Assembly: GCA_947561715.1 (NCBI GenBank)
Contig: OX387201.1
Span: 4,792,001-4,856,000 of the forward strand
Length of the DNA: 64,000 nt
Source: Ascidia mentula
Lineage: Eukaryota; Chordata; Ascidiacea; Phlebobranchia; Ascidiidae
Direction of reading: 5' to 3'
Notes under the pieces: generated by a model
Databases searched by the model: none
What the model was told of the DNA's origin: nothing
The model's input: only the letters and a program-made list of their open reading frames with translations
Position numbers and translations under genes: made by a program
Shown here: piece after piece, positions 14,413-42,651 of the stretch
How the letters are laid out: the number at the start of each line of letters is the position of its first letter
How positions within the stretch are numbered: the stretch's first letter is position 1

Positions 14413-14907
14413 TTAAGTCCCATGATCACCAACGTTTGCAGCGTGAACTGTTGCGCCAGAAAAATTATAATTTGATCCACCGTATGAGTCACCAATGTGC
14501 TGTGGCCCTGAGTAAACAAAGTTGCAATCAGCAGAAATGATTTTATGGTTTCCAGTAGAAAGTATAACCATTTATTGCGTTCTTTTTAACTTGGTAGGAG
14601 AAGATATACCATTTACCAGTGTTACAAACTGCAATCTCATTTAAACCATTTGACTCACCCATATTCACGTTTCCTTGCACTCCCACAACCGATCCTCCAC
14701 TGATATTCGTACCTTGCAAGTTCACTTGTTGTACCTTGCTATCCTTGTATACTGCTCACAAAAAATTGAATAATTTTATAAGGAATGGTTGATTTGTACA
14801 GGTGGACTACCTTTTGTGGATTTGTCGATGTGCATATCTCCTTGTGCTTCGTTTATCTCAGTCTTTCCGTTAAAACTGCAGTTACTGAAATTGTTGTGGA
14901 CAGACAT
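14413..14907 (-). CDS. Type-D gene: minimal complete member of the novel modular family (94 aa)
   Basis: I do not recognise the protein. Exon 1 (14907-14811, 97 bases) encodes MSVHNNFSNCSFNGK, then TEINEAQGDMHIDKSTK. Exon 2 (14751-14659, 93 bases) encodes VYKDSKVQQVNLQGTNIS and GGSVVGVQGNVNMG. Exon 3 (14507-14413, 95 bases) encodes GPQHIGDSYGGSNYNFSG, ATVHAANVGDHGT and a stop. Splice sites are standard (gtagtc, gtgagt; acceptors gagcag, actcag). Both introns are phase 1, and 285 bases close to exactly 95 codons. There is no signal peptide, membrane segment or catalytic motif. Alternating hydrophobic and small residues with Gly/Asn turns suggest short beta strands. The exons match three modules shared with the type A and B genes, so this is the simplest family member. 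Function unknown. Confidence 0.65.
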
Positions 14908-14999
14908 GTGCCAAAGAAAACCTTACAGATCACCAAATAAAGGTGCACAGCTTGCAGCGACAAAGTAATCGTAACAGTGTACTTGCAATGCTGGTAACA

Positions 15000-16180
15000 A
15001 TAAACAACTTGTCAAATGAACTAATGTTTTTATATCTCAGACCAAAAACGGAGCTTATTTTCAAACCACATCTGACAAAAGTCGTCCCACGTATGACTTG
15101 ATCAATCCTGTCATGGGTTTTACGATTTGATTCGAGTTCCTCTTTCACCGTGACGTAAGCAAGATATTAAGCGAGCTACCGTGACGTAAGCAAGCTACTG
15201 ATCAACAGTAGTCGTTGCACCCACGCTGTATCCAAAGTTCTAAAATTTCCTCGCGACAACACTGTATACACTTTTAAAACTTCGTTTTCTCATTTTTGTA
15301 TGTTGCTTATAGCGGCGCAGATCAGATGACATTACAAAGGTTGATGATAATAATAAAGAAAATGCGGAATATTTGTTGTAAATTGATCGTTACCACACGG
15401 TGATTAAGGCCAAACTTGACGGTTAAACCACAGAGTAGTTGCGACTTTTAACCGGTATGCCCACCTTATTGTGATTGATTTAGCAAAGGTGACCCCTTTC
15501 CCAGCTAATTACGAAATTTCCTTAAGTTAAAGGCACACCAGTTTCAACTTTTATCTCCAATTGCTTTTAGTTTTAAGCCAGCACACCTAACAAAAATCGC
15601 CCTACGTATGGCTTGATTAATCCTGTCATGAGGTTTACGTTTTGGTTCGAGTTCCTTTTTCACCGTGACGTATGCAAGATACTAAGCAAGCTACTAATAG
15701 TAGTGAGCGCGTCCTCGCTGTATTCAAAGATCTAAAATCTCCTCGCAACAACGCTGAATTCACCGGTTGATATGACATACAAAGGTTGATAATTGGATTA
15801 AGTGAATGCGGAGTATTTGTTGTAAATGGATCGTATCCAAACGGTGATTACGACCAACCATGGCGGTTAAACCACAGAGTGCTTACGACTTTCAACCTGT
15901 ACGCCTATATTTTATTGTAAATAATTGAACAAACGGTTACTCCTTTCCTTCACAGTTACAGCAAGGCGAAGAACTCCGGAAATTAACAATGGCTGTGAAA
16001 AATTAAAAAAAAAAATCAAAACTAACAAGAAACGGTATTGTTTATTCCATTTACAGATTTAGGGCAAATCAGCGGTGCGTCAACACCAATTTAGTTATAT
16101 CTTACAACCAAAACAGTCTTCAGATGCTTCATATCAGCAGTTTAACGTTAGCGATGTCTGGTTTATGTTGAAAACTTTAG
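15000..16180. other. Upstream region of the type-D gene with an internal duplication
   Basis: No coding exon is recognised. About 15060-15420 and 15590-15850 are diverged copies of each other and of 6475-6700 in the array. Landmarks are cacgtatgacttgatcaatc against tacgtatggcttgattaatc, and ttcaccgtgacgta in both. This may be the promoter region shared by type-D genes, since it lies just upstream of their first exon. Confidence 0.5.
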
Positions 16181-16649
16181 GCACGGATCGGTATACATTG
16201 TTGATGGTTATGGAAACAATGTTCATAATTAGGTGTGTTTTAAATATATTGTGAAAACAACTGTGCTCATAAGTTTTAAAAGTATAAACGCACAATGTCT
16301 GATAATTTCAGTGCGGAAAAAGTATTTACACGCAAGCAACAAACATAAAGTGACACAACCACAAAAGTAAACAACCACAAACACATTATGCATCCCTCAC
16401 TGCTCACCTAATGTCCACCTTTAACAACCTTGGCCGTTTGGCAAACTTCAGATGCATCGCCACTAGGTGGCGGATTTCCTACGCACAAGCGTAAGCGGTG
16501 ATTACTTTTGTGATACAAACAATGAGGAATTTAGGAGTTATCATAATTTGCGCCAAATAAGTAGACAACTAATATTAAATGTATGATAAAAAACATAAAA
16601 TAGTTTAGATTCATTAGGTTCGCTAGTATTACAGCCAAGCTGCATCAAC

Positions 16650-16755
16650 CCTTCAACAAAATCCCTGAAAAATCAAATTTGATGTTCGAACTAACGACTC
16701 TGGGGTTACCAGGACCAACTCCATATCGACAAAGCTGCAAGAGCTCAGCGGTTAG
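16650..16755 (-). repeat. Degenerate tRNA-derived SINE
   Basis: A weak match to the SINE at 19555-19705. The minus strand retains a B-box-like ggttcgaac region and the gagctcagcggtt start, but much is lost. Its duplicate near 19213-19320 is similarly worn. Confidence 0.4.
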
Positions 16756-16837
16756 TAGGTGTAAATTGTATCAAGAGAGCATTTCGGCAAAGACCTAAAT
16801 CATTTACAAAAGGAGTCTAAATACACCACAACGTCAC

Positions 16838-17239
16838 TCAACCGTAGAGAGATTTGTCCTGGTCTTGGGTTGGTTTTTGATTTTCTTGAGCATTTTTGTG
16901 CACACCGGTTTCTTCTTTGCCTATGTATGATGAAAAGAAAGTTGTAAATTGGTTTAAATGTAGCAAAAGTCTAATTTATAACCATATGTAACAGGGCAGA
17001 AATTAGGTATCGTGGTCACGGGTATGCGGTATTAACCTTGTAACAATAAATTGATCCAGAATAACACATCACAAGCTTTTAACCGTTTGTAAACACCATT
17101 CTTTTACCATTGTAACGACAAGTGAAATCGCTATTACCTTGGTTGACTGAACCGTGCTCACCGACAATTTGGGCGTTGAGAGTTGCACCTCGCTGGTCAA
17201 TTTTCGATCCGCCATAACTGTCGCCGTGGTGTTGTGGAG
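16838..17239 (-). CDS. Type-D-like gene, 3' part (first exon not found)
   Basis: Two exons are clear. Exon 17239-17138 is 102 bases, exactly the length of the GDxY module exons in the type-A genes. It encodes PQHHGDSYGGSKIDQRG and ATLNAQIVGEHGSVNQ, with a gtaata donor. Exon 16920-16838 (83 bases) encodes a polar tail (KEETGVHKNAQENQK, PTQDQDKSLYG) and a stop. Phase 1 is kept throughout. No start exon could be placed in 17.3-18.7 kb, so the gene is partial or starts beyond what I can recognise. Confidence 0.5.
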
Positions 17240-19418
17240 CTTTAAAATACATCGTTTACGTATGTAAGGACAATAGTAATGGAATTAGAAGTCAAACAGT
17301 GAATGATAGCAGATTTCGAATGTAGCAACAAAGTTTTAATGCTCGAGCATATCTCGTGCACAAGTTTAACTATCGCCATGCGATTGAATTTGCGCAATAG
17401 GCCAACTTACGATACATTAGATCTACTATATTTATTTAACTTTTAAACGCGTCCATTGTTGGAAAATAGGAACAGGGTTAGGGGGCACGATGGGTTTACT
17501 TTACAGTAATGCAGTTTAAATTGTATGGTTTCAAAAAATTGTTTTTAATTTTTAAAAGATTTAATTAAATAACTGAGAAGAACTGTTGTTTTAAATGCCA
17601 GCTAACAACTCACTGTTCTTCTAACTCTGAACATCGGTCACGTATTCATTCAAAAAAACTTTTACACTGTGACAAAGTTATAAAAAGTATATGTGTCTTA
17701 AATCGTTTGCTGAATTTACCCTAGGACAACATCAAGCACAGTTTTTAAGTTACTATGTAGGTTTATCAGCAGGTGGATACATTATGCAATATTGTGACTC
17801 ACGTTTCTGAAATGTAAATCATTTGCAATGACTGTATATAATACCATGGCCTTGCCATCAAAAACTGAATAATAGTAGTGTATTTTCGGGCATTTTATGT
17901 TTATTGTGTTTTTTATTTGTAGTGTACCTTCCATTACTGTATTTTTTATTTTTCCCATTTCTTGTTATATTTTCTTGGATGCTTCATGCCTACTTTTAAA
18001 ACCATCTGACCAGGCAATTTGTTTATTTTATTAACTTCTTATTCCATTCTTCCTCTGGGCACCAGTGTCATGACTTACCATCAACCAATTTTCACTGCCA
18101 TGCACACCACCAAATTGGATCATGTAATAATCGATATTATAAATTAGCATGCAAGTTATTTAGAGTTTCGAAACGGTTTCCGACTACAGCCTCGCACGAA
18201 CATAGCATGGCATGTGACTGTTTGTTGTTTGATTCTCCCGACACCGTCACTGTTTGTTCGAAACTTGCTTTATTCAATGGCTGGTGGGCTTATGCAAACA
18301 CATTTCGCGCACGTAGACAGACTTTGTTCAAAGAATATGAAATGCTGGATGGCAATGGTTGGATTCCTGTACGTTACAACGAATGAATACAGCATTGTAA
18401 GCATTTGGCATGTTTTGTGCAAAAAAGACAATGCAACTGCTTGCAAATTATATCAAATTGACTTCAATATAATTTTAATAAGTGATTGCAGTAATCAGTT
18501 ATGTTTGTGGTCAGAGTGTAAGGCGGGTGCTTGGGCGTAAATACTAAACAAATTAAAATTATGTTTAAATTGTATAATTTTCCCGCACTATTGACTGTTT
18601 AAACATATGCTTGATATTCATGACAACTGTACATTCTCCTTTTTTGCACACACATTTTATTACATTTGATATGCTTTAAAGCACGGATCGGTATACGTTG
18701 TTGAAGTATATGGACATAATGTTCATAATTAGGTGTATTTGCAACATATTGTGAAAACAACTGCTCATAAGTTTCAAAAGTGGTATAAACGCACAAAGTC
18801 TAATAAAGAGAAAGATTCCAGTGCGAAATACCTCACATGTAAAACGACCAGGTATTTACACACAAGCAAGAAACATAAAGTGGATACAGGTGACAGGTAA
18901 ACCATGGTGTCACACGGTGCTGGGAACTGTTTGTCTGCAAAAAGAGATAATATTTAAACAACCACAAACACATTATGCATCCCTCACTGCTCACCTAATG
19001 TCCACCTTTAACAACCTTGGCCGTTTGGCAAACTTCAGATGCATCGCCACTAGGTGGCGGATTTCCTATTCACAAATATACGCGTTGATTACTTTTGTGA
19101 TAAAAACAATGCGCAATTTACGATTTACAATAATTTGTGCTAATGTAATGTTTATGATAAAAATTCATAAAATAGTTAGGATTCATTAGGTTCACTGGCA
19201 TCACAGCCAAGCTGCATTAACCCTTCATGCCCATTACCAAAAATCCTTAAAAAATCAAACTTTCAGTGAGTTTCGAACTAACGACTGGGAACGTGGGTAA
19301 ATAATGTTAGTAGGTGTAAATTGTGGTTATGATTAACTGGTGCCCTATATATCAAGATAGCATTTCTTCAAAGACCTAAATCATTTATAAAAGTAGTCTA
19401 AATACATCAAAACGTCAC

Positions 19419-19501
19419 TCAACCGTAGGGAGATTTGCCCTGGCCTTGGGTTGGTTTTTGGATTTCTTGCGTATTTTTGTGCACGCCGGTTTCTTCTTTG
19501 C
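19419..19501 (-). pseudogene. Orphan last exon, duplicate of 16838-16920
   Basis: This 83-base exon encodes KEETGVHKNTQEIQK and PTQGQGKSPYG followed by a stop, a diverged copy of the tail exon at 16838-16920. The 102-base GDSY exon that should precede it is missing; a tRNA-derived SINE sits there instead (19555-19705). This is probably a dead copy. Confidence 0.5.
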
Positions 19502-19554
19502 CTATGTATGATAAATTGGTATAAATCAGGCAAAAATTTTTTCTGTAACGGACA

Positions 19555-19705
19555 GCATCATGAGGTTTTCAGGCTTGACAGCCCAGGCAATAAAGCCTAG
19601 CTGGATCAGCCACTTTTTCCTGATAAGCAGGTGAGGTTTGAACTCACGACCCTGGGCTAACCAGACCCAATGCTCTACCAAATGAGCTACAGGAGCTCAA
19701 TGGTT
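19555..19705 (-). mobile_element. tRNA-derived SINE (family 1)
   Basis: On the minus strand this begins with a tRNA-like head: an A-box region TAGCTCATTTGGTAGAGC, an anticodon arm TGGGT/GCCCA with loop CTGGTTA, and a TPsiC arm GTGAG-TTCAAAC-CTCAC. The acceptor ends do not pair, so it is not a tRNA gene. The tail (ggatcagcc, gcctgggctg, cctcatgat) recurs as a snap-back at 46075-46190. It replaces a family exon in the duplicated unit. Confidence 0.7.
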
Positions 19706-20099
19706 TCACAGGGTATATTGTGGCCAAGGTAAACTGGTGCGCAAGCGCACAACTCGCCAGGCAACCTTCACATATACGTAGGGGATCTCTACCATTGGAA
19801 ACGAAGCAGTCTTAACCTAAACAGCGAATACGGTCTGACTAGACGGTTAATCACCAGGTGGATGCGTTATGCAATATTGTGACTCACGTTTCTGAAATGT
19901 AAATCATTTGCAATGACTGTTTATAATACCGTGGCCTTGCCATCAAAAACTGAACAATGGTAGTGCTTTTCCGGACATTTTATGTTTATTTGTTCTTTTA
20001 TTTGTACTGCACCTTCCATTACTGCATTATTTATTTTTTTTCTATTTCTTGACATATTTTCTTGGATGCTTCATGCCTACTCTTAGGTAAATATTACAT

Positions 20100-22110: not shown

Positions 22111-22114
22111 AGTT

Positions 22115-24325
22115 TCACACAACTTCGTTCCGTAATTGCCTAATAACATCTCGTTCTTGCTTATCCTTTGTGCAATACAATCTTTGCAATCCAATTTTGA
22201 AGCTTATCAAACCTTGCTCGTGTTCGACTTGCGGCAGTGTTGTCGCCCTATTTCCATCCTCATGTTCGTCGCCCTGGGGGGCAGCCGTTTCTGTAACATG
22301 CAGGAAATGTATTATGATTGTTACATGGTTTTTCATTACTATGTTGTCATTGAATCAGGAAATGTAATGTTGTTGGTGTGCAGACAACTGTGCGACATGT
22401 TGTGTGCCGTTCACGTACAGAATTTGTGTACAATAACAAACTTTTTGAGCGTCTACGGGCAAATGTTACGAGTAAACAGACGATAATATGAGCAAGTGAT
22501 TTGAATATTTTCAGTGAAACTACGTTATTTCTTACTGGCAGGCCTACTCCATTCAAAACTTATTTTGGGTTGGCGTCACTTGTTATTGGTTACACTTTCA
22601 TAACGAAATCGTGATAGTAAAATTCAATACGTTATAGATGCAAATTATTTGAAGCGTATACTTTTAAAAGGAAAACTGTCGATGCTACTTTGTAGGACTG
22701 CTTCAGACCTTCAGACTCACTTCACAGTTTCTACGTCACTTGCTTTCCACTTGCTGGGGTGAGTCAGTGCATTCAGTTACCACTTGTCGCTGATGTTAAA
22801 AGCAGTGTATATAGTATTGTAAACGTTGCCTTCCTTAACAGCAGACTTACAGCTTTTTCTTTCCTTAATCTATACGTGATGCAACGATATAATTTTAACC
22901 CGACGCAATGATGCTCATACCTGCAGTGGGGGCTTGGTCTGTAGTACTCTCAGGAACAGGTGCGTTTTCAGGCTGATCACCATCTGTATTAGGTATTTTT
23001 ACTTCAGAGATGGCCCAATATATATAAAGATATTTTGGGTAAAGGAAAATTTTGTGAACACAGAAAATAATGTTGTTTGGTATCACCATATCTGCAGTCA
23101 ATTAGCTTATCAATTGCATAAGCATATTAACGCCATGGTTTTTTACAGATTAACTACATCCATACTAAGATTAAACAATCGTCTTACTTGTTACATCTTC
23201 AGTTTCTTGCCTGTTTTCTTTATCTTGTTGCGTTAGTGTAGATGTTGGAACACCTATTTTATAGAACCCATGTTAGACAAAACAGATTCAAAGATTAAAA
23301 TACAATGACATGCAAGTGTTTCACGTCAAGCGTAATTAACCCTGATAAACCGTGGCTCCGTCCCCAACATTTCCGGCGACGACAGTTGCATCAGTAAAGT
23401 CAAATTTTGCTCCATTGTACTTGTCACCTACGTGCTGATGACCTATAACAACACAATTACAGAGCACAACTTACAGAAGAAATTTTGTCGTAAAACCTCC
23501 AATCATGCCATTATAAAAGTTTTTTCTATTTTTTGTCGTGTTATTTTTTTTTACCTGAACTTAATCCAGCACCTGATTCTTGATTGCTTTTCCTGACTCT
23601 TTTCCTCTCAGTCTCATCTACCTTCACAGGTGCAGCTGCTGTTTGTGTAAAGTGTTTTTAGCTATTGTATGACTTTAATTAGGGTATAATAACTACTTAC
23701 AACGTTTTGCAGGTTTTGAACTATTTGGTGTGTTTTGTTGATCTTCTAACCGCTCATCTTGAGAACCTGAAGAAATGTATATACTTTCAATAGATTTTTT
23801 GGACATTGGTACCATAAAACACCAACACCTATATAAAGAAATATATAAGAATGTCAAAGTTACAGTATATGTGTTGTTCTACAACGTATAGGCAGTACCA
23901 CATCACGGTCGGGGCAGTTACAATACCTTGGTACACAGTGCTGTTGTCACCGACATTTCCAACTTTCAGGTTTGCCCCTGAAAATGCAAACTTTGGTCCT
24001 GTGTAGCTATCTCCAATATGTTTGGTACCTAAACATTGGCTGTAATCAACAATCTCATACATATGCAGTTAAAACTGTACAGATTTTTTTTCAAATGGTT
24101 TACTGCACTTAACAATAGTTGCACATCTGTCAGATGTTCAAAATGATGTCTTATATGTATGCTGTGGTAGTAACACCTAGCAAATTGGTTTAAACTTGCA
24201 AACAGTGTCTTATTGTCGTACCCAAACTTACCTTCATTCTGTTGATTCATGGTTATGCTTTTATCGGATGTAATAAACGTTGGTTGTCCCACAATTTTAG
24301 AGTTATCGTTGAAGTTAATAGACAT
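22115..24325 (-). CDS. Type-A1 gene of the novel modular family, eight exons (250 aa)
   Basis: Unrecognised protein. Exons: 24325-24232, 24028-23927, 23766-23701, 23638-23555, 23442-23341, 23253-23188, 22983-22921, 22290-22115. All introns are phase 1, and 753 bases close to 251 codons. Exon 1 is a cap module (MSINFNDNSKIVGQPTF, TSDKSITMNQ). Exons 2 and 5, both exactly 102 bases, carry the GDxY module (HIGDSYTGPKFAFSGANL, KVGNVGDNSTVYQ; and HQHVGDKYNGAKFDFTDA, VVAGNVGDGATVYQ). Exons 3, 4, 6 and 7 are polar linkers such as DERLEDQQNTPNSSKPAK. The last exon is charged (ETAAPQGDEHEDGNRA) and ends QRLYCTKDKQERDVIRQL...NEVV. No signal peptide or membrane segment is seen, so it is probably intracellular. 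Exon 5 uses a weaker donor, gttaat. An acceptor (tttttag) lies 14 bases before the ATG. Confidence 0.65.
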
Positions 24326-25373: not shown

Positions 25374-25426
25374 AGCTGCACTGATGAGACCTTTTAGGTC
25401 GAAACAGTGGTCATCTATCTGCAGCT
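25374..25426 (+). ncRNA. Hammerhead-ribozyme-like motif
   Basis: The core strings are present in order: CTGATGA (25381-25387), a perfect 5-bp stem II (GACCT/AGGTC with a TTT loop), then GAAA. Stem I is a perfect 7-bp pairing of agctgca (25374-25380) with tgcagct (25420-25426), directly next to the core, giving an AUC cleavage triplet. Stem III is weak: A-U, a C-A mismatch, A-U and G-C. Hammerheads of this kind are known from Penelope-like retroelements and related short repeats, and the surrounding 25.2-25.5 kb has no gene. Cleavage activity is unproven. Confidence 0.45.
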
Positions 25427-25617
25427 TACACAATATTAAACGTACGTAAAAATGTGACCATGTTTATGACATGGAAATGGGATATACACAATCATGCGCA
25501 GTACAATAACCGCAATAGCAAAGTAAAACACGAGAGTAAGTGCTTTGCTTCTCAGGAATGGATCGTTGACTTGATCATAAGTTGCTGCAGTTAAACTGCA
25601 ATAAGTTGCTAAGTCAG

Positions 25618-27289
25618 TTACTGCTTCCAGTTAGTCACAGTAACATTTCCCATAACACCACATGTGGATCCTCTGATGGTCGCACCTTGAGCGTTTGTCA
25701 CCTGCCTTTGTGTAACTGGGCGGGATGCTAAATATAGATATACCAATTGTAACACACTCTGATGTCATATATTACGTCAGAAAATAGATTGCACGAACAA
25801 TTATTGAACACGTCGTAACAGGGTTCAATTTATAACTTAGTCAGTTGTTTAAGAGTTAAACTTCAAAAAATTTTGATCAGCAAATAATGCATTACAAAAA
25901 AGAATCGAGAGTCTCCATTTAATCCTAAATCCACACAATCATTTAAACACAAACATCTGTCAAATAAACACAAGTGTTAAGAAGATGTAATTTACCGGAT
26001 GGAACGTTCCTGCCCTGCACATGTTGGCTGGTGGTACCTACAATGAAACATAAAAAAGTTATTTAAAAAGATATTTTCAATGTTTAAATATGCTTTTTTT
26101 ATAGTCAGAACCTTTTTGCACGTTGCCCATCACCCCAACAGTGGAATTCTCAATCGTTGCTTTCTCAAAGTCGTTGATTTGTTCCTGGCTGTTGTTGTAT
26201 TCTGGGCAAATTTTTCAGCATTTTAATATTGTTTTGGAACAGAAAGGTAGTCGACGTCGAAGTCACACAATAGGCATCAAATTACCTTTGGTTGACCTGT
26301 CGATGTTAATGTCCTTCTTGGCAGTATTAAAATTTGGATTTCCGCCAATTTCACAATCGTCAAAGACGGTTTTGGCAGTCGGTTCCTTATCCATTGCAGG
26401 TTCTTTAAGAAATGAATGTTAGGACATTTACGGTTGGCACAATTTATCGCAAATATATGTAAACAACTGCAGTTTTGTCAATTGTAACCAGGGTGATGCA
26501 AAAAGAACTTTATACACGAACAAACCCGATAAATATATCCAGATCCGACCGACGTTTCAAAATCCAACTAACCTGTTTCTTGTTCATTTGAATTCAATGA
26601 AGCGTCTTCTGGCTTCTTTTTGGATTGCGATTGTTCAACGCTTCGAGTAGTTTCACCTGAACCAAAATGCGCACAAGCATTGCGTAAACATATACTTTAC
26701 TTATACATGGCAAGGTCAGCCAACTACATACACAACATGGAAAAGAGGTAGATACCACACACATGCAGTAATAGGAACCAGCTTGCAAATACTTTGTTGG
26801 TTGGCATATTAAAGCCACAAATCATATCGTTTTGTATTGTAACAACATTGGAAAAATTATATCCACCCTCTGCAGGTCCCACATTGCCCATGATTGCTGT
26901 TGTTGAGTCTATGATGGTTGCACCTCCAAACTTGTTCTCTTGTATTTTCGACGCATTGTGAACTGAAACAACATTATGTTTAGCTTTTGTTCTAAGGCGC
27001 ATGTGTCGCTCCGACTTGTGGGAAAGAAATGGCTGATCCTGCTGGGCTGCAATGCCTCGGCTGTAAAGCCTGTAAGCTAATTTTGCGTTGTATCGCGTTT
27101 CAGATTTGAACTTGATTGCGGTATTTTGTTCACTGTTACAACGAAAAAGGTCTTTGAGATCAAGAAATATATCAATGATTTCCACCCACCTGTTCGGCTC
27201 TGGTCGATATTGATATTGTTTCCGGCTGTGTTAAAAGTTGCATTTCCGCTCATCTTGCAATCTTCAAAAACGGTTTGAGCAGAAGACAT
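25618..27289 (-). CDS. Type-B1 gene of the novel modular family, seven exons (212 aa)
   Basis: Unrecognised protein. Exons: 27289-27190, 26962-26867, 26656-26573, 26402-26286, 26201-26112, 26037-25996, 25727-25618. All introns are phase 1, and 639 bases close to 213 codons. Exon 1 is a cap module (SSAQTVFEDCKMSGNATF, NTAGNNINIDQSRTG), repeated in exon 4 (KTVFDDCEIGGNPNFNTA, KKDINIDRSTKG). Exons 2, 5 and 7 carry a second module: NKFGGATIIDSTTAIMGN, INDFEKATIENSTVGVMGN and NAQGATIRGSTCGVMGN. Exons 3 and 6 are linkers. The gene thus has a cap-module pair twice, plus a final module ending VTVTNWKQ. An acceptor (attatag) lies 14 bases before the ATG and would keep the frame open if used from an upstream phase-1 exon. 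No known domain is seen. Confidence 0.65.
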
Positions 27290-27938
27290 AGTGTATCCAA
27301 TTCCTATAATTTTCAAACAGTTTTACCTCTGCGTGTATAATTCAGTTTTATTAGGCTTTCTAAACGAAAAATCAGATAGCTTTCAAACCATAAAACAGTG
27401 TACCGCGAAATTAACCTCACAGCAAGTGGCCTGTAGCTAACCACCCCGTCTTATATGCTACTCAACATTAGCGACAAAGAGGAACCTTCTGAGTTCCGCC
27501 TATGACTGTTCAGCGCAGCTACCAGCAGGGACTTTCCCAGGTTATCACAGGTGAAGCAAATTAGTCTGACAATAAACAATCAGCATACATGCAGCCAGCC
27601 AAGTGGGGGATTTTTCAATGTTAAATTGGACCATGGCGCTTTATTCGACTCAATATTCTCATTTTGATTGTCGTCATGGTACTCTAATTTGGATGTGTGT
27701 GAAATTGCAAAATCAAAAATAATGTGCAAGGTCAATCATGGTTTATTGAACAACACGGTTCTAAACCGACTCCCTGTGAACAGCAGAGGTACAGTAATCG
27801 TACCACATCATTATGACTTGACGTACCTTGTGTTAGTACTTAACAACAGACTTAACAGCAAACATTTTTGTCTTTTCCCTTTTCAATCTATACGTGTTTC
27901 AACGATATAATTTTAACCCGACGCGATGATGCTCGTAC

Positions 27939-29299
27939 CTGTAGTGGGAGCTTGTTCTGAACTACTCTCAGAGACAAGGGTATTTTCAGGTTGATCACCA
28001 CCTGTATTTTTTCCTTTAAGAGTAAAATAAATGTTTTTTTCTACTACAGAGATAGCTCAAATTTTGCATAAAAATAAATTGCGAGGTTTGTTCTGGGAAA
28101 CGGAGAATATTTTTAAAGCGAACACAGCCTGTTGATCAGTATGATCATATTAGCAGTCAATGAGTTTTTACTTTGCATATCGTCTTACTTATTTCACCTT
28201 CAGTTTCTTGCTTGTTTTCTTGTGGCCTTCGTGTAGTTGATGGAACACCTGTTGTATAGAACCTATATTAGACACATGCCGATCCAATAATGAAAATACA
28301 ATGACATGCAAGTGTTGTGCGGCATGCGCAAATAAGCCAATGCTAACCCTGATAAACGGTGGCCCCGTCCCCAATATTTCCGGCGTCGACAGTTGCATCA
28401 GTGAAATCGAATTTTGGTCCGTTATACTTGTCACCTATGTGCTGATGATCTACAACAACACAATTAGGGCACAGCCTGCAGATGTATTTTCCATTATAGC
28501 CACTGTAGTAAAATTATCCACGTTTTATAGTACCGTACTAATTTTTTTACCTGAACTTGATCCAGCACCTGATTCTTGATTGCTTTTTCTGACTCTTTTC
28601 CCCTCAGCCTCATTTACGTTCTCAGGTGCAGCTGCTGCTTATGTGAAGTGTTTTTAGCCATTTTTTTGCCTTTAATTAGGGTAACTACTTACTACGTTTT
28701 GCAGGTTTTGAACTATTTGGTCTGTTTTGTTGATCTTCTAACCGCTCATCTCGAGAACCTGGAGAAATGTATATACTTTAAATAGATTTTTTGGACATTG
28801 GTACCATAAAACACCGATATCTTAATGAAGAAATATATTTAGGAATGTCAAACTTACAGTACATGTGTTATTCTCCAACGTACGAGGCAGTTACAATACC
28901 TTGGTACACAGTGCTGTTGTCACCGACATTTCCAACTTTCAGGTTTGCCCCCGGAAATGCAAACTTTGGTCCTGTGTAGCTATCTCCAATATGTTTGGTA
29001 CCTTAACATTGGCTGTAATCAACAGTCTCATACATATGCACTTAAAACTGTACAGATTTCTTTTTCGAATGGTTTGTAGTACTAAACAATAGTTGTACAT
29101 CTGTCAGATGTTCAAAATGGTGTCTTATGTGTAAACTGTGTTAGTAACACCTAGCAAATCGGTTTAAACTAGCAAACAGTGTCTTATTGTCGTATCCAAA
29201 CTTACCTTCATTATGTTGATTCACGGTTATGCTTTTATTGGATGTAATAAACGTTGGTTTCCCCACAATTTTAGAGTTATCGTTGAAGTTAACAGACAT
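27939..29299 (-). CDS. Type-A2 gene of the novel modular family, seven exons, no own last exon
   Basis: Paralogue of A1. Exons: 29299-29206, 29001-28900, 28758-28693, 28634-28551, 28449-28348, 28248-28189, 28001-27939. Lengths match A1 except exon 6 (60 against 66). The cap reads MSVNFNDNSKIVGKPTF. The two 102-base GDxY exons read HIGDSYTGPKFAFPGANL and HIGDKYNGPKFDFTDATV. The charged terminal exon of A1 (22290-22115) has no counterpart: that distance downstream brings one into type-B1. A2 exon 7 ends in phase 1 at gtacga, and B1 exon 1 is preceded by a phase-compatible acceptor. Splicing A2 into B1 would therefore give one 407-residue open frame. Either A2 is 3'-truncated or the two form a joined transcript. 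Confidence 0.55.
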
Positions 29300-29499: not shown

Positions 29500-29555
29500 T
29501 TTTACCACCAGGGGCAGCCCATGGGTTCAAATCCCGGTGTGGTCAAAAAAAATGG
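29500..29555 (+). mobile_element. Fragment of family 2 SINE
   Basis: Only the B-box half remains: catgggttcaaatcccggtg followed by tggtcaaaaaaaat, matching the elements at 21595 and 57510. Confidence 0.5.
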
Positions 29556-30551: not shown

Positions 30552-32044
30552 TTACTGATTCCAGTTAGTCTCAGTAACATTTCCCATCACACCAAATATG
30601 GATCCTTCGATGGTTGCACCTTGAGCGTTTGTCACCTGCCTTTGTGCAGTTGGACGGGAGGCTAAATATTGATATACCAATTGTACCACACTTTGATGTC
30701 ATACATTACGTCACCAAATAAGTTGCACGGACGATTAATGAACACGTCGTTATAACGTTCAATTTAAAATGTAGTTAGTTTTTTTGGAGCCAAGCTTTAA
30801 ATTTTTTTTCTTTAGCAGGCTAAATGATGCACTACAAAAAAAGGCTCTAGCGTTTCCATTTAATCTGAAATTCACACAATCTGACAAGTAAACACAAATC
30901 TTATTCTTTGAGAAGAATAAACTTACCCAATGGAACGTTCCTGTCCTGCACTTGTTGACTGGTGGTACCTACAATAAAACATTAACATTCCATTAAAAAA
31001 ATACGTTTTTTATTTAAATATGGTGCTGTGGTTCAAACCTTTTTGCACGTCACCCATCACTGCCACAGTGGAATTCTTTATCTTTGCCTCCTTAAAGTTG
31101 TTGGTTTGTTCCTGGCAGTTGTTGTGTTCTGGTAAATATTTTAGCGCTTTGGTATTGCAATGGAGCCGTGTCAATATCCATAGACTTGGAGGTCATACTA
31201 TGGGCATCAATTTACCTTTGGTTGATCTGTTTATGTTAATATCTTTCTTGGCAGTATTAAAATTTGGATTTCCGTCAATGGCGCAATCTTCAAAGACCGT
31301 TTTGGCAGCCGGTTCGTCATACGACTTATTTTCTGTCAGAATCACAGTTTTAGTTGCGTAATTTGTGGGTTATTACTGCAATCATATAACAAAATTGGCA
31401 TATCCAAACAAATACAGCATGCTTATAAAACAGTAACCTGTTTCTTCTTGCTTTAAATTTGATGAAGCGTCTGGCCTCTCTCTGGATGCCGTTTGTTCTA
31501 CGCCCCTAGAAGTTTCCTCCAAACCTGAAAGTTTTGTTCAATGCATGGTAAAGGTAACCCGACGATGGTTTCAGTTAATACTGAGCATATTCAGTGATGC
31601 ATATTCAGTGATAGTTACCGGTTACAAACGCAAAGTGATATTACATAGGTTGTTAATGTACAAACCATACATGAAATTAATTATTATACTAAAGCAATTA
31701 GTTTATATTTACCTTCCTGAGGCCCCACATTCCCCATCACCGCTGCCGTCGAGTTTGTGATCGTTGCACCAACAAAGTTGTTGTTCTGTATTGTTGACTC
31801 ATTGTGAACTGTAACAACATTGTGTTTAGCTGTAAGGCGTATTTATTGCGAATCTTAGATTCACACGTTATGGATATTATGTATACGTTTTCAGCGAAAA
31901 AAGGTTTTTAAAAGATCAAAAAAAGGTAAATAACTTCCATACACCTGTTCGATTTTGGTTGATATTTATATCCCCTCCAGCTGTATTAACAGTTGCGTTT
32001 CCACTTATCTTGCATCCTTTAAAATGAGTTTGCGCAGAAGACAT
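30552..32044 (-). CDS. Type-B2 gene of the novel modular family, seven exons (213 aa)
   Basis: Exons: 32044-31945, 31808-31713, 31524-31438, 31332-31216, 31128-31039, 30968-30927, 30661-30552. Lengths 100, 96, 87, 117, 90, 42 and 110 total 642 bases, 214 codons, all introns phase 1. The modules match B1 in the same order: cap (SSAQTHFKGCKISGNATV; KTVFEDCAIDGNPNFNTA) and ATI module (NNFVGATITNSTAAVMGN; NNFKEAKIKNSTVAVMGD; NAQGATIEGSIFGVMGN). It is the most diverged B copy; exon 3 is one codon longer and reads EETSRGVEQTASRERP. Frame and splice sites are intact despite the divergence, which argues for selection. Function unknown. Confidence 0.65.
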
Positions 32045-33619: not shown

Positions 33620-35237
33620 TTACTGCTTCAAGTTAGTCACAGTAACATTTCCCATCACACCACATATGGATCCTTTTATGGTCGCACCTTGAGCGTTTGT
33701 CACTTGCTGTTGTGTAGCTGGGCGGGATGCTAAATATAGATATACCAATTATAACACACTTTGATGTTACACACTACGTGAGCAAATAGGTTTCATGGAC
33801 GATTAATTAACACGTCGTAATAGCGTTCAATTTAAAATGTAGTCAGTTGTTTTGCAGTCAAAACTTTTTATCGGTAAATAATTAATTACAAAAAGAATCG
33901 AGAGTCTCCATTAAATCTTAAATCCACACAATCATCGAAACATAAACATCTGTCAAAAAGTCTCATCCTTACGAAGAATTAACTTACCGGATGGAACATT
34001 CCTGCCCTGCACGTGTTGACTGGTGGTACCTACAAAAAAACATGAAAAAGTTATTTAAAAAAATATTTTCTATGATTAATAGGATGTTTTTTTTGTAGTC
34101 CGAACCTTTTTGCACGTTGCCCATCACCCCAACAGTAGAATTCTCAATCCTTGCCTCCTCAAAGTTGTTGGTTTGTTTCTGGCTGTTGTTGTATTCTGGG
34201 CAAATGTTACAGCGTTTTCATTTTGCGTTGGAACAAAAAGGTAGTCGACGTCGAAGTCACACAATAGGCATCAAATTACCTTTGGTTGATCTGTCGATGT
34301 TAATGTCCTTCTTGGCAGTATTAAAATTTGGATTTCCGACAATTTCACAATCGTCAAAGACGGTTTTTGCTGTCGGCTCCTCATCTATTTCAGGTTCTAT
34401 AAGAAATGAATCTTAGAACATTAACGGTTGACACAATTTATCGCGAATACATGTAAACCACTGCAGTTTTGTCAACTGTAACCAGGGTGATGCAAAAAAA
34501 ACATTAGTCACGAACAAGACTAACCTGTTTCTTGTTGATTTGATTTCAATGAAGCGACTTCTGGTTTCTTATTGGATTGCGATTGTTCAACGCTTCGAGG
34601 AGTTTCACCTGAACCCAAATGCGCATAAGCAAGATATACTGTACTTGAATATGTAGCAAAGTCAGCCAACTAGATACGCAAAACGGAAAAGAGGTAGATG
34701 CCACACACATGTAGTGATAGGAACCAGCTTACAAATACTTTAGAAAAAAATGTTGGTATAGGCATATAAAAGCGCCAACTCGTATCATTTTGTATGGTCA
34801 CAACATTGGAAAAATTGTATACCCTCTGCAGGTCCCACATTGCCCATGACTGCTGTTGTTGAGTCTATGATGGTTGCACCTCCAAAGTTGTTCTCCTGTA
34901 TTTTCGACGCATTGTGAACTGAAACAACATTATGTTTAACTTTTGTTATCTAAGGCGCATGTGTTGTTCCGAAAGAAAAGGCTGATCCAGCTAGGCTGCA
35001 AGTGCCTCGGCTGTACAGTCTGTAACATAATTGCGTCGTATCGCGTTTCAGATTTGAACTTGATTGTGGTATTTTGTTCACTGTTACAGCGAAAAAGGTC
35101 TTTGAGATCAAGAAATATATCAATGATTTCCACCCACCTGTTCGGCTCTGGTCGATGTTGATATTGTTTCCGGCTGTGTTAAAAGTTGCATTTCCATTCA
35201 TCTTGCAACCTTTAAAAACGGTTTGAGCAGAAGACAT
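33620..35237 (-). CDS. Type-B3 gene of the novel modular family, seven exons
   Basis: Same seven-exon layout as B1. The cap starts at 35237 (SSAQTVFKGCKMNGNATF). The ATI module is at about 34920-34823 (NNFGGATIIDSTTAVMGN) and the linker at about 34610-34530. The second cap is at about 34395-34280 (KTVFDDCEIVGNPNFNTA) and the second ATI module at about 34197-34108 (NNFEEARIENSTVGVMGN). A short TTSQHVQGRNVPSG exon lies near 34030-33990, and the terminal exon ends at 33620 (NAQGATIKGSICGVMGN, VTVTNLKQ, stop TAA). Frame and splice sites appear intact. It lies in copy 1 of the 5.3-kb duplication, just downstream of C1. Inner exon ends are approximate. Confidence 0.6.
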
Positions 35238-36474
35238 AATGAATTCAATTCCTAATGTTTTCAAACAGTTTTACTTCTGCGTGTATAATTCAGTTTTATT
35301 CAGCTTTCTAAACGAAAAATCAGATAGCTTTCAAACCCTGAAACAGTTCAACTTTACTGCGAAATTAACCTTACAACAAGTGGCCTGTAGCTAACCAACC
35401 CGTCTTATATGCTACTCAACATTAGCAACAAAGAGGAACCTTCTGAGTTTCACCTATGACTGTTCAGCGCAGCTACCAGCAGGGACTTTCCCAGGTTATC
35501 ACAGGTGAAGCAAATTAGTCTGACAATAAGCTAGTAGCATACATGCACTGCTTGTATATAAAAGTACCAAACAAAGTGGGAGATTTTTTCATGTTAAATT
35601 GGCCATGGAGCTTTATTCGACTCAATATTGTCATTTTTATTGTCTTCATGGCACTTTAACTTGGATGTGTGTAAAATTGCAAAATTGGTAATAATGTACA
35701 AACGCCAATCATGGTTTATTGGACAACACTTTTTCAAAACAGACGTAACAAACGGACGTAACAATTACGTTATTATGTACATATCGAACTGGCTCAAAAT
35801 TGTAATACACTAAAGAAGCGATCTTGATTCAAGGCTAGGCCTACGGGGCTGGAAACAGTTACACGGGTGGCATACGACAAAGGAAGGTGACCCACCTGCA
35901 GGGGAATCACCAGTCGGTTGTGTTTAATTTGAACAATCGGTGGTGCAACCCTGTGACGTATTTCTGCCCACGCCGTTAACAAACGAAAAGGAGTCGTTGT
36001 GTGGGTGCAACTAGTTTATTTTTGACCCAATGTGTTTTCTCAATATGATGCATTTGTTTTATGGACTCATTTGATCTCAGCGACAATACTGCGTCCAACA
36101 TCTACACAACATTGCGCTATGCCCACTGTTTTAATTGCATTTCAACTTTCAACGAACAGAACAAAATTTTGCTATTTACGAAATTATGCGACATCGAATG
36201 TTTTTGATAAGGCACGGCATGTGCAGGGGCTATTTTGCATAAAATTTGGAAAAAAGAAAGACACAGTTCGTGATTACCGTTGGGGAACTAGGTGTAACAA
36301 AATGAATACACAGATTCACATCAAAGTTGTGAAACAAAAAATCACATAAAGATAGCACCAGAAATGTTACAAAAATGTTCGTATAGTCCCCGTTGAACTG
36401 TTGAGGTGGCTTTAGTTACATGACGTTGATAGGAGCTTGCAAAAATGCGTAATATGCTGGAAATTCGTTTAACG

Positions 36475-37403
36475 TTACTCACGCCTGGTCCCACCGCCTG
36501 CAAAATACAATAGCATAGACAACGACTCTTATCCGCAGCAGATCGACAACATATGACGACTGTATAGGGCATAACTATGCATTTACGCATTCTATCATAA
36601 ACTTACAACTATCTCTCACTTAGCATTACACCAGATTATGAGTGGAAATTACGTCAATGTTTCCGAATAAAACATTTCCGCGGAATCCTGCAAGGTTTTT
36701 TTCACCCTCAAGACGTCAGAAACGGCAAATAAACCAGATTCAGCCCGAGACAAGTTAGTGGAAGCATTTATATTTATTTGTAAAACCCTAGGGTTGAGCG
36801 GAACCTAATTTGTGAGACGCTTGTTTACGTACCACGTTGTTGTGAAGCTGTCTGATATAGGTGCTGTTGGGAATTGTCGCTGCTTGGTGCTATTTGGTCT
36901 GAAAATTCATATGTTATTTAATATAAGAAGTACACACGTGCTCGCGCAAGGCGTATAGTGGAAAACTGCATTGTAGTACTTTAAATATAACAAACCAAGC
37001 TATTGGAAACCACGGTTCGAAATGCATATTCTTAATCATCCTTCTGTGTACTGGGTACGTGACGTGAGCTTACTTGGTCCTGATGTTTGCGGTTCGCATT
37101 CACGACTTCCGGAAGTTTCCCCACTTGCCTGGCCTCGGTTCGCTTGGTTTTGCGGCGTTGTGGCTGCTGGCTTATTACTTTCATTTTGTCCTACATAAAA
37201 AGTTACACATTTGAAAGTCGTACTGAACGCAATGCATGAAAAAATTACACTGGGATTGGAACAGGTGTTTAATGAACAAAACCAACTAACCAAAATTTAC
37301 CAAAGTTCGCACCTTTTTCGCCTTGATAAACGGTAATGCTCTCCTTGGAGGTATTGAATGTGGGATCACCAGTAATGCTCGAGTTCGTAAAGTTTACCGA
37401 CAT
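36475..37403 (-). CDS. Type-C1 gene of the novel modular family, four exons (98 aa)
   Basis: Exons: 37403-37313, 37190-37074, 36898-36833, 36497-36475, totalling 297 bases or 99 codons, all introns phase 1. Exon 1 is a cap module close to type A (MSVNFTNSSITGDPTFNT, SKESITVYQGEK). Exon 2 is a Gln/Asn/Ser-rich linker (ESNKPAATTPQNQANRGQ, ASGETSGSRECEPQTSGP). Exon 3 is similar (QIAPSSDNSQQHLYQTAS). The tiny last exon encodes GGTRRE and a stop. That stop overlaps a good donor: the bases read GTGAGTAA, so using gtgagt would remove the stop and leave a 15-base phase-1 microexon able to join any downstream module exon. There is no GDxY or ATI module, so it is a cap with a disordered tail. Confidence 0.55.
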
Positions 37404-38929
37404 TTCTTACCAGACGAAATCTTTTCAATTGTAACACAATTTGTCACTATTCAAAATAAGCTGTACAAGATAACAGTGCGAAATAAAACATCGCGCGCAC
37501 AATTGATTCACGGATTAACCCAAAAACCTAACGAAAAACATGCATATTCGTCTCCTATAACGCCCACTATACTAAACTTAGCCATTCAGTAAAACAGCCA
37601 AGCTTAATGCTGAAGCACACAGAGCTTCTTCTTTTTTTCAACGGTGGCTTGAAATCTGATATAGCTAAAGCCGTCGTATCTTTGTTTGCACGGGTGAATG
37701 CTTCGCTATACTTGGGCCACATGTATGGTTTAGTCTTGTGTTGTACTTTTTTGTTCTTGGTGTGTGTGTGAAAGGCATGTCTTTCGGAAGGGTTTGCTCA
37801 AGGTTTGACAAAGGCAAAAAAAATTTTTAGACAGCTTGTGGGAAAGAAAAATGAACAACACCCCACCCACCCCAGAAGAGGTAGTAATTGTTACAACGCA
37901 AAACTGTATCAAGCTTCGTTCCACATTATATTGACGTGACGTTCGAATTGCGTCTTTTCTTTAACAGCATTGAACTGGCGCAAAATTGTCATGGAGTAGG
38001 GCAGGGATATTGTTTTAAGGCTGTAGACCTTTAGGGCTGAAGCAGTTGAGTGGGTGAGATACAACAAAGAGCGGTTGCTCACCTTCAGGGGAAACACCAC
38101 TCGGTTCAGTACACATTTTGCGGCGGACGATGGTGCAACGTCTGAGTATATTTGCCCACGTAGCTAACAAACTAAACAGACCACCAAGAACGAATCCATT
38201 CTCATTAATGTGATGAATTTTTTGTGGATTTAGTTGACCGATAACTAATTTCTATGCAGTAAAACGCGATGGCACAACTTGAAATATGACCCCGATTCTC
38301 GAGCATGCATTGGTGCAAATTATGTATACTGCGTCCAACTTCTACACAACGTTGCGCTGTACTCTCTATTTTAATTTCATTATCGTTGATTTTCTTGTAT
38401 TAGTATTGGTTTTAACTGCGTTGTTTGTGTGTTTTTAGCGATACTGATGATACCTGTAAACACAAGCGAACTGGTGCGCTATTGAAATCGTTTATTCAGT
38501 AATAAAAAAACTCGGTAAAAAAAAGGTATAAATCTATTGTTAAAAATTGGAGCTAGTAAAAGATCTAGCAAATAAACAACATGCTGTTAACAATATATGC
38601 AATGCCCTTAACGTTGCCGATGCATACAATCCATTCATTTACATGCTCCATGAGATGCAGAAATTTTTTAGTTAACAAATGCCACAATAACATTATTAAA
38701 AACGGAAATTATTAAAATCGACATGAAAGCTAAGGAAACTGTCAGCAGTAAACATGATCCTGACATGGAAAGATTATGTACAAAACCATGTGCAGTAACC
38801 TTGAAAGCAAAGTAAAAAACGATACAGAGTAAGCGGTTGGATTAAGATTTGCTTCTCAGGAATGAATCTTTGACTTGGTCATTAGTTTTTGTTTTTCCGC
38901 AGTTAAACTGCAATAAGTTGCGAAGTCAG

Positions 38930-40501
38930 TCACTGCTTCAAGTTAGTCACAGTAACATTTCCCATCACACCACATATGGATCCTTTTATGGTCGCACCTT
39001 GAGCGTTTGTCACTTGCTGTTGTGTAGCTGGGCGGGATGCTAAATATAGATATACCAATTATAACACACTTTGATGTTACACACTACGTGAGCAAATAGG
39101 TTTCATGGACGATTAATTAACACGTCGTAATAGCGTTCAATTTAAAATGTAGTCAGTTGTTTTGCAGTCAAAACTTTTTATCGGTAAATAATTAATTACA
39201 AAAAAGAATCGAGAGTCTCCATTAAATCCTAAATCCACACAATCATCGAAACATAAACATCTGTCAAATAAACACAAGTGTTAGGAAGATGTAATTTACC
39301 GGATGGAACATTCCTGCCCTGCACGTGTTGACTGGTGGTACCTACAATAAAACATGAAAAAGTTATTCAAAAAAATATTTTCTATGATTAATATGATGTA
39401 TTTATTGTTGTCCGAACCTTTTTGCACGTTGCCCATCACCCCAACAGTAGAATTCTCAATCCTTGCCTTCTCAAAGTTGTTGGTTTGTTTCTGGCTGTTG
39501 TTGTATTCTGGGCAAATGTTATAGCGTTTTATTTTGCGTTGGAACAAAAAGGTAGTCGACGTCGAAGTCACACAATAGGCATCAAATTACCTTTGGTTGA
39601 TCTGTCGATGTTAATGTCCTTCTTGGCAGTATTAAAATTTGGATTTCCGACAATTTCACAATCGTCAAAGACGGTTTTTGCTGTCGGCTCCTCATCTATT
39701 TCAGGTTCTACAAGAAATGAATCTTAGGACATAGACGGTTGACACAATTTATCGCGAATTTTAAAAAAAAAACATTAGTCGCGAACAAGACTAACCTGTT
39801 TCTTGATGATTTGATTTCAATGAAGCGACTTCTGGTTTCTTATTGGATTGCGATTGTTCAACGCTTCGAGGAGTTTCACCTGAACCCAAATGCGCATAAG
39901 CAAGATATACTGTACTTGAATATGTAACAAAGTCAGCCAACTAGATACGCAACACGAAAAAGAAGTAGATGCCACACACATGTAGTGATAGAAACCAGCT
40001 TGCAAATACTTTAGAAAAAAAATGTTGGTAGGCATATTAAAGCGCTAACTCGTATCATTTTGTATGGTCACAACAATGGAAAAATTGTGTACCCTCTGCA
40101 GGTCCCACATTGCCCATGACTGCTGTTGTTGAGTCTATGATGGTTGCACCTCCAAAGTTGTTCTCCTGTATTTTCGACGCATTGTGAACTGAAACAACAT
40201 TATGTTTAACTTTTGTTATCTAAGGCGCATGTGTTGCTCCGAAAGAAAAGGCTGATCCAGCTAGGCTGCAAGTGCCTCGGCTGTACAGTCTGTAACATAA
40301 TTGCGTCGTATCACGTTTCAGATTTGAACTTGATTGCGGTTGTACTGTTACAGCGAAATAGGTCTTTGAGATCAAAAAATCTATCAATGATTTCCACCCA
40401 CCTGTTCGGCTCTCGTCGATATTGATATTGTTTCCGGCTGTGTTAAAAGTTGCATTTCCATTCATCTTGCAACCTTTAAAAACGGTTTGAGCAGAAGACA
40501 T
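38930..40501 (-). CDS. Type-B4 gene of the novel modular family, seven exons
   Basis: Recent duplicate of B3. The cap starts at 40501 (SSAQTVFKGCKMNGNATF, NNINIDESRTG); the remaining exons follow at the B3 positions plus about 5.3 kb. The terminal exon ends at 38930. Its stop is TGA where B3 has TAA, a single T-to-C change on the plus strand that keeps the same end point. All modules remain open by eye. The very high identity to B3 makes short-read mapping and assembly here hard. Confidence 0.6.
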
Positions 40502-41722
40502 AATGAAATCAATTCCTAATGTTTTCAAACAGTTTTACTTCTGCATGTATAATTCAGTTTCATTCGGCTTTCTAAACAAAATTACAGATAACTTTCAAAC
40601 CCTGAAACAGTTCAACTTTACTGCGAAATTAACCTTACAACAAGTGGCCTGTAGCTAACCAACCCGTCTTATATGCTACTCAACATTAGCGACAAAGAGG
40701 AACCTTCTGAGTTTCACCTATGACTGTTCAGCGCAGCTACCAGCAGGGACTTTCCCAGGTTAACACCTGTGAGACAAATTAGTCTTACAATAAACTAGCA
40801 GCATACATGCACTGCTTGTATATAAAAGTACCAAACAAAGTGGGGGATTTTTTCTTGTTAAATTGGCCATGACGCTTTATTCGACTCAATATTGTCATTT
40901 TGATTGTCTTCATGGCACTTTAACTTGGATGTGTGTAAAATTGCAAAATTGGTAATAATGTACAAACGCCAATCATGGTTTATTGGACAACACTTTTTCA
41001 AAACAGACGGACGTAACAATTACGTTATTATGTACACATCGAACTGGCGCAAAATTGTAATACACTAAGGAAGCAATCTTGATTCAAGGCTAGGCCTACG
41101 GGGCTGGAAACAGTTACACGGGTGGCATACGACAAAGGAAGGTGACCCACCTGCAGGGTAATCACCAGTCGGTTGTGTTCAATTTGAACATTCGGTGGTG
41201 CCACCCTGTGACGTATTTCTGCCCACGCCGTAAAAAAGGACTCGTTGTGTGGGTGCAACTAGTTTATTTTTGACGCAATGTATTTTCTCAATATGATGCA
41301 TTTGTTTCATGGACTCATTTGATCTCAGCGACAATACTGCGTCCAATATCTACACAACATTGCGCTGTGCCCACTGTTTTAATTACTTTTCAACTTTCAA
41401 CGAACAGAACAAAATTTTGCTATTTACGAAATTATGCGACATCGAATGTTTTTGATAAGGCACGGCATGTGCAGGGGCTATTTTGCATAAAATTTGGAAA
41501 AAAGAAAGACACAGTTCGTGATTACCGTTGGGGAACTAGGTGTAACAAAATGAATACACAGATTCACATCAAAGTTGTGAAATAAAAAATCACACAAAGA
41601 TAGCACCCGAAATGTTACAAAAATGTTCGTATAGTCCCCATTGAACTGTTGAGGTGGCTTTAGTTACATGACGTTGATAGGAGCTTGCAAAAATGCGTAA
41701 TATGCTGGAAATTCGTTTAACG

Positions 41723-42651
41723 TTACTCACGCCTGGTCCCACCGCCTGCAAAATACAATAGCATAGACAACGACTCTTATCCGCAGCAGATCGACAACAT
41801 ATGACGACTGTATAGGGCATAACTATGCATTTACGCATTCTATCATAAACTTACAACTATCTCTCACTTAGCATTACACCAGATTATGAGTGGAAATTAC
41901 GTCAATGTTTCCGAATAAAACATTTTCGCGGAATCCTGCAAGGTTTTTTACACCCTCAAGACGTCAGAAACGGCAAATAAACCAGATTCAGCCCGAGACA
42001 AGTTAGTGGAAGCATTTATATTTATTTGTAAAACCCTAGGGTTGAGCGGAACCTAATTTGTGAGACGCTTGTTTACGTACCACGTTGTTGTGAAGCTGTC
42101 TGATATAGGTGCTGTTGGGAATTGTCGCTGCTTGGTGCTATTTGGTCTGAAAATTCATATGTTATTTAATATAAGAAGTACACACGTGCTCGCGCAAGCC
42201 GTATAGTGGAAAACTGCATTGCAGTACTTTAAATATAACAAACCAAGCTATTGGAAACCACGGTTCGAAATGCATATTCTTAATCATCCTTCTGTGTACT
42301 GGGTACGTGACGTGAGCTTACTTGGTCCTGACGTTTGCGGTTCGCATTCACGACTTCCGGAAGTTTCCCCACTTGCCTGGCCTCGGTTCGCTTGGTTTTG
42401 CGGCGTTGTGGCTGCTGGATTATTACTTTCCTTTTGTCCTACATAAAAAAATACACATTTGAAAGTCGTACTGAATACAATGCATGAAAAAAATACACTG
42501 GGATTGGAACAGGTGTTTAATGAACAAAACCAACTAACCAAAATTTACCAAAGTTCGCACCTTTTTTGCCTTGATAAACGGTAATGCTCTCATTGGAGGT
42601 ATTGAATGTGGGATCACCAGTAATGCTCGAGTTCGTAAAGTTTACCGACAT
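41723..42651 (-). CDS. Type-C2 gene of the novel modular family, four exons (98 aa)
   Basis: Recent duplicate of C1 at an offset of 5248, with the same four exons: the MSVNFTNSSITGDPTFNT cap, two Gln/Ser-rich linkers and the tiny GGTRRE last exon with its GTGAGTAA donor/stop overlap. The coding differences I saw are minor, for example NESNKP against KESNNP in exon 2. Confidence 0.55.

Follow-up and report, generated by a model that had tools for sequence, protein, structure and literature searches.

We analyzed a 64,000-nucleotide stretch of the genome of the ascidian Ascidia mentula (GenBank assembly GCA_947561715.1, contig OX387201.1), referred to as the window, which corresponds to C69:4792001-4856000 within the 196-Mb assembly. 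The subject of the analysis was a cluster of small modular genes on the minus strand of the window. Gene models were rebuilt from splice sites in the DNA and are predictions at the DNA level only. Nine genes, designated C, A1, A2, B1 to B4, D1, and D2, were obtained between positions 14413, the stop of gene C, and 42651, the start of gene D1. They are composed of three short modules, cap, ATI, and GDxY, which were located by motif scans on the minus strand, and of polar linkers. Each of the nine models had GT/AG splice sites, ended in a stop, and closed to whole codons. The internal exons, 35 in total, were without exception multiples of three with symmetric phase 1-1. These exons represent 13 distinct types, and the chance that 13 independent types would all be symmetric is about 6e-7. 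A preliminary description of this DNA had proposed a modular family of this kind with exon models closing to whole codons, and both proposals were borne out.

Gene C (14413..14907) encodes a predicted protein of 94 residues without linkers, comprising cap (14907-14811), ATI (14751-14659), and GDxY (14507-14413), with the stop inside the GDxY exon. Of the two proteins whose sizes the preliminary description gave, the 94-residue one, listed there as type D, is the product of gene C, and the 212-residue one is that of B1. Since it lies past the gene C stop, an exon encoding a fourth module (GPQNNYYGKVGVVGNVKNA, 14283..14339, minus strand, GC-AG donor) is either a remnant or part of another transcript. 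Gene B1 (38930..40501) contains cap (40501-40402), ATI (40188-40093), a linker (39879-39796), cap (39707-39591), ATI (39507-39418), a linker (39341-39300), and ATI (39039-38930). The same plan was found in B4 (25618..27289), B3 (30552..32044, 213 residues), and B2 (33620..35237), the last being nearly identical to B1. Genes A1 (27913..29299, 197 residues) and A2 (22895..24325) are composed of cap, GDxY, two linkers, GDxY, and two further linkers, followed by the tail GTSIIASG in A1 and GMSIIASG in A2; the acceptor choice at exon 4 is ambiguous in both. Genes D1 (41874..42651) and D2 (36626..37403) consist of a cap and polar linkers, and another last exon is possible in each. The motif scan also located an isolated GDxY exon (17136..17240, minus strand) outside any complete gene model. 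At lower window coordinates, between 5868 and 11095 on the minus strand, a unit with a partial cap (MSVFNNFS.CSFNGKSEGNKAQ) occurs three times in tandem at a spacing of about 2.4 kb; in two of the three, the profile also picks out a separate cap end, TEIHQAEGDIYIDKSTRG. Units resembling these are present at C69 4.66-4.67 and 4.786-4.790 Mb.

Between 14 and 43 kb of the window, module profiles matched the minus strand 6 times for GDxY, 13 times for cap, and 13 times for ATI, and gave zero matches on the plus strand, zero on the reversed sequence, and zero in 20 Markov shuffles each. Since the profiles were built from the window sequences themselves, the minus-strand matches are positive by construction and the controls alone are informative. 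Independent support for the family comes from copies elsewhere in the genome and from purifying selection. None of the four gene types (C, A, B, and D) matched a Pfam family above the cut-off; the family is unrecognized, as the preliminary description had stated.

Genome searches with C, A1, and B1, whose counts are lower bounds, placed the family in one minus-strand cluster of about 190 kb (C69:4,644,109-4,834,651), with outlying copies on C1, C2, and C70 and weak matches within very long open frames of C73. With the Pfam ZU5 model, 54 places with E of at most 0.1 were listed genome-wide, and five of these fall inside the cluster and share its strand (4710477, 4743755, 4746724, 4774928, and 4780069); four of the five were found again in the DNA examined, and 4710477 lies outside that DNA. 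From C69:4745569 to 4741833, 14 exons join into one open frame, giving a predicted gene that starts with cap, ATI, and GDxY and continues with a fourth module (GPQNIKYEKVGVVGNVENA, GC-AG donor) and two linkers; ZU5 follows on two exons, the end of which reads EHFT, then the UPA-like region on two more, and finally ATI, GDxY, a linker, and GDxY. The last GDxY exon has no usual donor, so the model ends there. The ZU5 domain scored 24.4 and 33.8 bits in two C69 genes, and 29.0 bits in the longer model of the second, which is the 14-exon gene (Pfam cut-off 21); no death or CARD domain was found above the Pfam cut-off in the 14-exon gene. Window gene C resembles the N-terminal part of the 14-exon gene, in which a fourth-module exon of the kind found past the gene C stop is spliced in frame, and the tail TSIIASG, which also ends A1, as MSIIASG ends A2, occurs further downstream of the 14-exon model. 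The small genes of the window are motif-only relatives. The preliminary description had treated them as a self-contained family, which they are not: the modules also flank ZU5-UPA-like regions nearby, and ATI follows LRR-ZU5-UPA-like exons on C70.

The ratio of replacement to silent substitution rates (dN/dS) was determined separately for modules and linkers. For modules, it was 0.28 in A1-A2 (p 0.008), 0.28 in B1-B3 (p 8e-8), 0.36 in B3-B4 (p 1e-5), and 0.44 in B1-B4 (p 0.02). When the modules of B1, B3, and B4 were compared with those of a B-type copy from another chromosome (C70:6727403-6728850), the ratios were 0.25, 0.32, and 0.31, with p from 2e-8 to 4e-6. Module ratios were thus between 0.25 and 0.36 in six of seven comparisons and 0.44 in the seventh, whereas linkers were close to 0.8 in three of four (A1-A2 0.80, B1-B3 0.84, B3-B4 0.84, and B1-B4 0.40). 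The modules are under purifying selection. Whole-gene ratios were 0.59 for A1-A2, 0.35 for B1-B3, 0.44 for B1-B4, and 0.41 for B3-B4. For the youngest pairs, B1-B2 (0.84 on 4 differences) and D1-D2 (1.43 on 6 differences), the sequences are too similar for the ratio to be informative. The preliminary description had named ratios near 1 in A1/A2 and B1/B2 as evidence that would speak against the family; for A1/A2 the module value is well below 1, so this does not apply to the modules; the whole-gene value is a reservation, and B1/B2 is uninformative. Gene C and its paralogue at C69:4675785-4675294 gave a ratio of 0.17 from three silent and two replacement changes.

These values bear on the explanation that the small genes are debris, in which tandem duplication and unequal crossing-over fragmented ZU5-UPA receptor genes into decaying pieces that are at most passive decoys. 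Such an origin would account for gene C ending inside its GDxY exon with an intact-looking fourth-module exon beyond, for the D1/D2 ratio, for the partial cap copies at 5.8-11.1 kb, and for the missing donor of the third GDxY exon in the full C69 gene. However, the reading frames are open in all nine genes, gene C and its paralogue retain the same truncated frame, and B-type modules are constrained across chromosomes (0.25, p 2.4e-8). We consider debris an unlikely explanation.

The ATI motif recurs in a second family of genes on C70. At one locus, the LRR model matches four times (66.1 bits against a cut-off of 23.4), and these matches are followed by ZU5 (25.8 bits), UPA-like exons, and a single ATI-type exon QYLDIKAQHSNITDSIVGVQGDVHQHSG, the continuity of the gene being judged from order, strand and, from ZU5 onward, reading phase. 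The UPA-like part of the query has matches with E of at most 1.1e-6 at 38 or more places. Of the 13 motif matches listed on C70, 12 share a strand with a UPA-like exon and are situated some 250-430 bp downstream of it. These counts are lower bounds from a query that held both parts, and two of the 13 motif matches are weak (E 0.04 and 0.33). In the 2.4 kb after the motif at one C70 locus, no death-fold family was found above the cut-off in any of the 15 forward frames of at least 30 residues. A frame resembling a retroelement integrase by eye adjoins the C70 receptor genes (L084 2-961).

A further group lies on C2 in two blocks (2213573-2221686 and 2569046-2575957), in which motifs of the SIVGVQGNV kind alternate with polar linkers as judged by eye. 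The first block is downstream of an open reading frame that appears helical on visual inspection and for which Pfam gave nothing above the cut-off; a reading of this frame as TPR-like, also made by eye, was not retained. In profile-profile comparisons of ATI, with single-comparison E-values, C69 matched C2 at 97.0% (E 1.1e-10), C69 matched C70 at 95.8% (E 7e-9), and C2 matched C70 at 94.2% (E 1e-7). Upstream of the first C2 block there is a gene for an E3 ligase of the HECT type (25.9 bits against a cut-off of 23.9; L081 3105-3362, in C2:2223001-2227500, minus strand). The Botryllus fuhc locus is also reported to contain polymorphic HECT ligases (PMC12065747).

Five ZU5-UPA-like regions were aligned, all with ZU5 at E 0.1 or better. 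In all five, H and F were invariant and were followed by S in two and T in three. A phase-2 intron adjoins this HF[S/T] triplet in both genes checked, one from C69 and one from C70, and the UPA-like region is common to the C69 and C70 copies. A search of solved structures with the ZU5-UPA-like region returned the ZO-1 ZU5 domain at 8e-6. An Nup98 autopeptidase match ends near the HFS triplet (E 0.0087, below the cut-off) and was not relied on. PIDD is described as cleaving itself after each ZU5 domain at HF/S, and NLRP1 and CARD8 at SF/S, with Ser, Thr, or Cys as the nucleophile of this class (PMC3210808). The UPA-CARD C-terminal fragments are described as self-oligomerizing in PMC7794386.

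The modules are a real, constrained motif family and, in our reading, part of a tunicate receptor system of the ZU5-UPA type. In the receptor-like genes, the motifs stand where vertebrate relatives have a death or CARD domain; this suggests an unrecognized motif of immune or cell-death signaling. Our preferred interpretation, which we hold at about even confidence, is that the modules are homotypic signaling motifs of a tunicate PIDD1/NLRP1/CARD8-type receptor system with motif-only partners. The mechanism proposed is modeled on PIDD and NLRP1: ZU5 would undergo self-cleavage at HF/S or HF/T, and loss of the N-terminal half would free a C-terminal fragment of the putative UPA and the motif. 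The freed motif could in turn recruit, or act as a seed for, its counterpart in the motif-only proteins that the window encodes (types A, B, and C), which might act as adaptors, amplifiers, or decoys with modules joined by flexible linkers. This scheme combines, by analogy, PIDD/NLRP1 cleavage, UPA-CARD oligomerization, and the transfer of an amyloid fold by fungal receptors, for which a short shared motif provides the route (PMC7889193). If correct, it would join self-cleaving receptors and motif-based polymer signaling in one chordate system, and the natural receptor-partner sets would allow direct tests of motif specificity.

Among known systems, PIDD1 (LRR-ZU5-UPA-death domain) is matched by the C70 gene in its LRR, ZU5 with HF/[S/T], UPA-like region, linker, and short C-terminal part, but at the C70 locus examined a motif of 30 residues replaces the death domain, and here the genes form a large tandem family with a C69 relative that has motif arrays on both its N- and C-terminal sides. 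NLRP1 and CARD8 (FIIND-CARD) likewise have ZU5-UPA, a cleavage-type triplet, and then a short, presumably self-associating part, whereas the tunicate genes show no CARD or NACHT and have HF/T or HF/S in place of SF/S. Fusions of TRADD-N with FIIND or UPA-ZU5 have been reported (PMC8195603) and also join the metazoan ZU5-UPA module to another signaling module; TRADD-N is a different domain, however, and no Pfam match to it was found here. As with RHIM, HET-s-type, and BASS motifs, a short motif behind flexible linkers is common to receptor-like and partner proteins, here at the gene level, although the tunicate motifs have no sequence match to these. The Botryllus histocompatibility factor (BHF) is also a tunicate protein of cytoplasmic type without known domains; compared by description only, it differs in having alpha-helices and N-terminal cysteines in addition to disordered regions (PMC12065747).

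Several results weigh against homotypic signaling motifs in such a receptor system. The window's own genes yielded no ZU5 or UPA, the one weak ZU5-query match (22290-22391, E 0.019) having an internal stop, and no partner effector was found. The UPA-like part has no Pfam model above the cut-off, and among solved structures its sole resemblance, a very weak one, is to a segment of UNC5B (E 0.2). In B1-B4, modules and linkers did not differ in dN/dS (0.44 vs. 0.40). The whole C70 motif exon carried no selection signal, with a ratio of 1.03 over all pairs of 11 copies, copies L076 and L095 having been left out; its 11-residue core VGVQGDVHQHS, spotted post hoc, had no replacement in the 11 copies versus changes in 13 of the other 19 codons. 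The control profile comparisons, ATI vs. GDxY (12%, E 0.0025) and ATI vs. cap (24%, E 0.0008), also gave low E-values, as single-comparison values are small even for controls. Known amyloid motif families showed no sequence match, Pfam covering only some of these families. In solved-structure profile searches, made with ATI and GDxY, the best matches were a reductase for ATI (E 0.17) and designed propeller proteins for GDxY (E 0.015), which were judged to be due to chance. AlphaFold models of single ATI and GDxY modules, with predicted local distance difference test (pLDDT) values of 62.8 and 52.9 and no secondary structure assigned, were uninformative.

The regularity of the repeats, at 30-35 residues and beta-like by eye, also invites a different structural explanation, namely that the modules form a stable monomeric beta-helix or pentapeptide-like binding scaffold and are not assembly motifs. 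A sub-threshold Pfam Pentapeptide_3 match (E 0.11 in C and 0.72 in B1) fits this idea, but it is far under the cut-off and spans 13-15 residues, and both the polar linkers between copies and the single use of the motif after the C70 UPA-like exons are unlike a continuous helix. A scaffold of this kind seems improbable to us.

If the modules are signaling motifs, amyloid assembly is plausible, supported indirectly by the presence of the motif in both receptor-like and motif-only genes and by the polar linkers. When C, B3, and A1 were profiled for hydrophobic aggregation, most hot spots fell in modules, those outside being VPLAS in a B3 linker and the TSIIASG tail of A1; this profile is weak and was not relied on. 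The preliminary description had guessed at a link with NACHT proteins, and in that version the modules would be amyloid motifs of NACHT receptors, of the fungal or bacterial kind. The genome does contain a large NACHT set, with at least 95 places scored, but at the eight NACHT loci examined, each with 1.5 kb on either side, every module match fell short of E 0.05 (best value 0.086). The RHIM family gave four matches in the whole genome, none above the cut-off (best E 2.24), and none of 301 pattern matches of the C70 motif profile in prokaryote contigs was confirmed as a relative. The association observed is with ZU5-UPA-like and LRR genes, and a NACHT role is in our judgment very improbable. 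An exon of a NACHT gene (L005 976-1100) starting with the polar segment TIGDVYNANQQQ...GNVFQ resembled the motif and was rejected as a single match in the genome search. A dense NACHT array was observed at C71 14.2-15.4 Mb.

A broader proposal is that a tunicate lineage swapped the death-fold output of PIDD/NLRP1-type self-cleaving receptors for short assembling, possibly amyloid, motifs and expanded the motif-only proteins, in a cluster of their own, as polymerizing adaptors for these receptors. Such an animal amyloid-type system would have no sequence relationship to RHIM and would be coupled to ZU5-UPA, not to NACHT; we offer the proposal tentatively, as a possibility that is on balance doubtful. 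In a partial survey of the literature, we met no animal amyloid signaling motif besides RHIM and no ZU5-UPA protein with a short repeated motif as output.

Elsewhere in the window, a DDE_Tnp_4 transposase (514-1563, plus strand) and a Myb/SANT-like protein (3386-3952, minus strand) were found, which we take to be a PIF/Harbinger-type element pair. Pieces of neurotransmitter-gated ion channel genes lie beside the cluster at 57022-57363 (plus strand) and 62080-62397 (minus strand), the second below the cut-off. The mitochondrial contig C79 (L010 and L011) is 19.5 kb with 38% GC, which is long and GC-rich for a tunicate, and its main protein frames are all on one strand as judged by eye. The host was taken to be a tunicate from the cox1 gene of this contig, where AGA/AGG codons occur at conserved glycine positions, with residues judged by eye, in agreement with the ascidian code.

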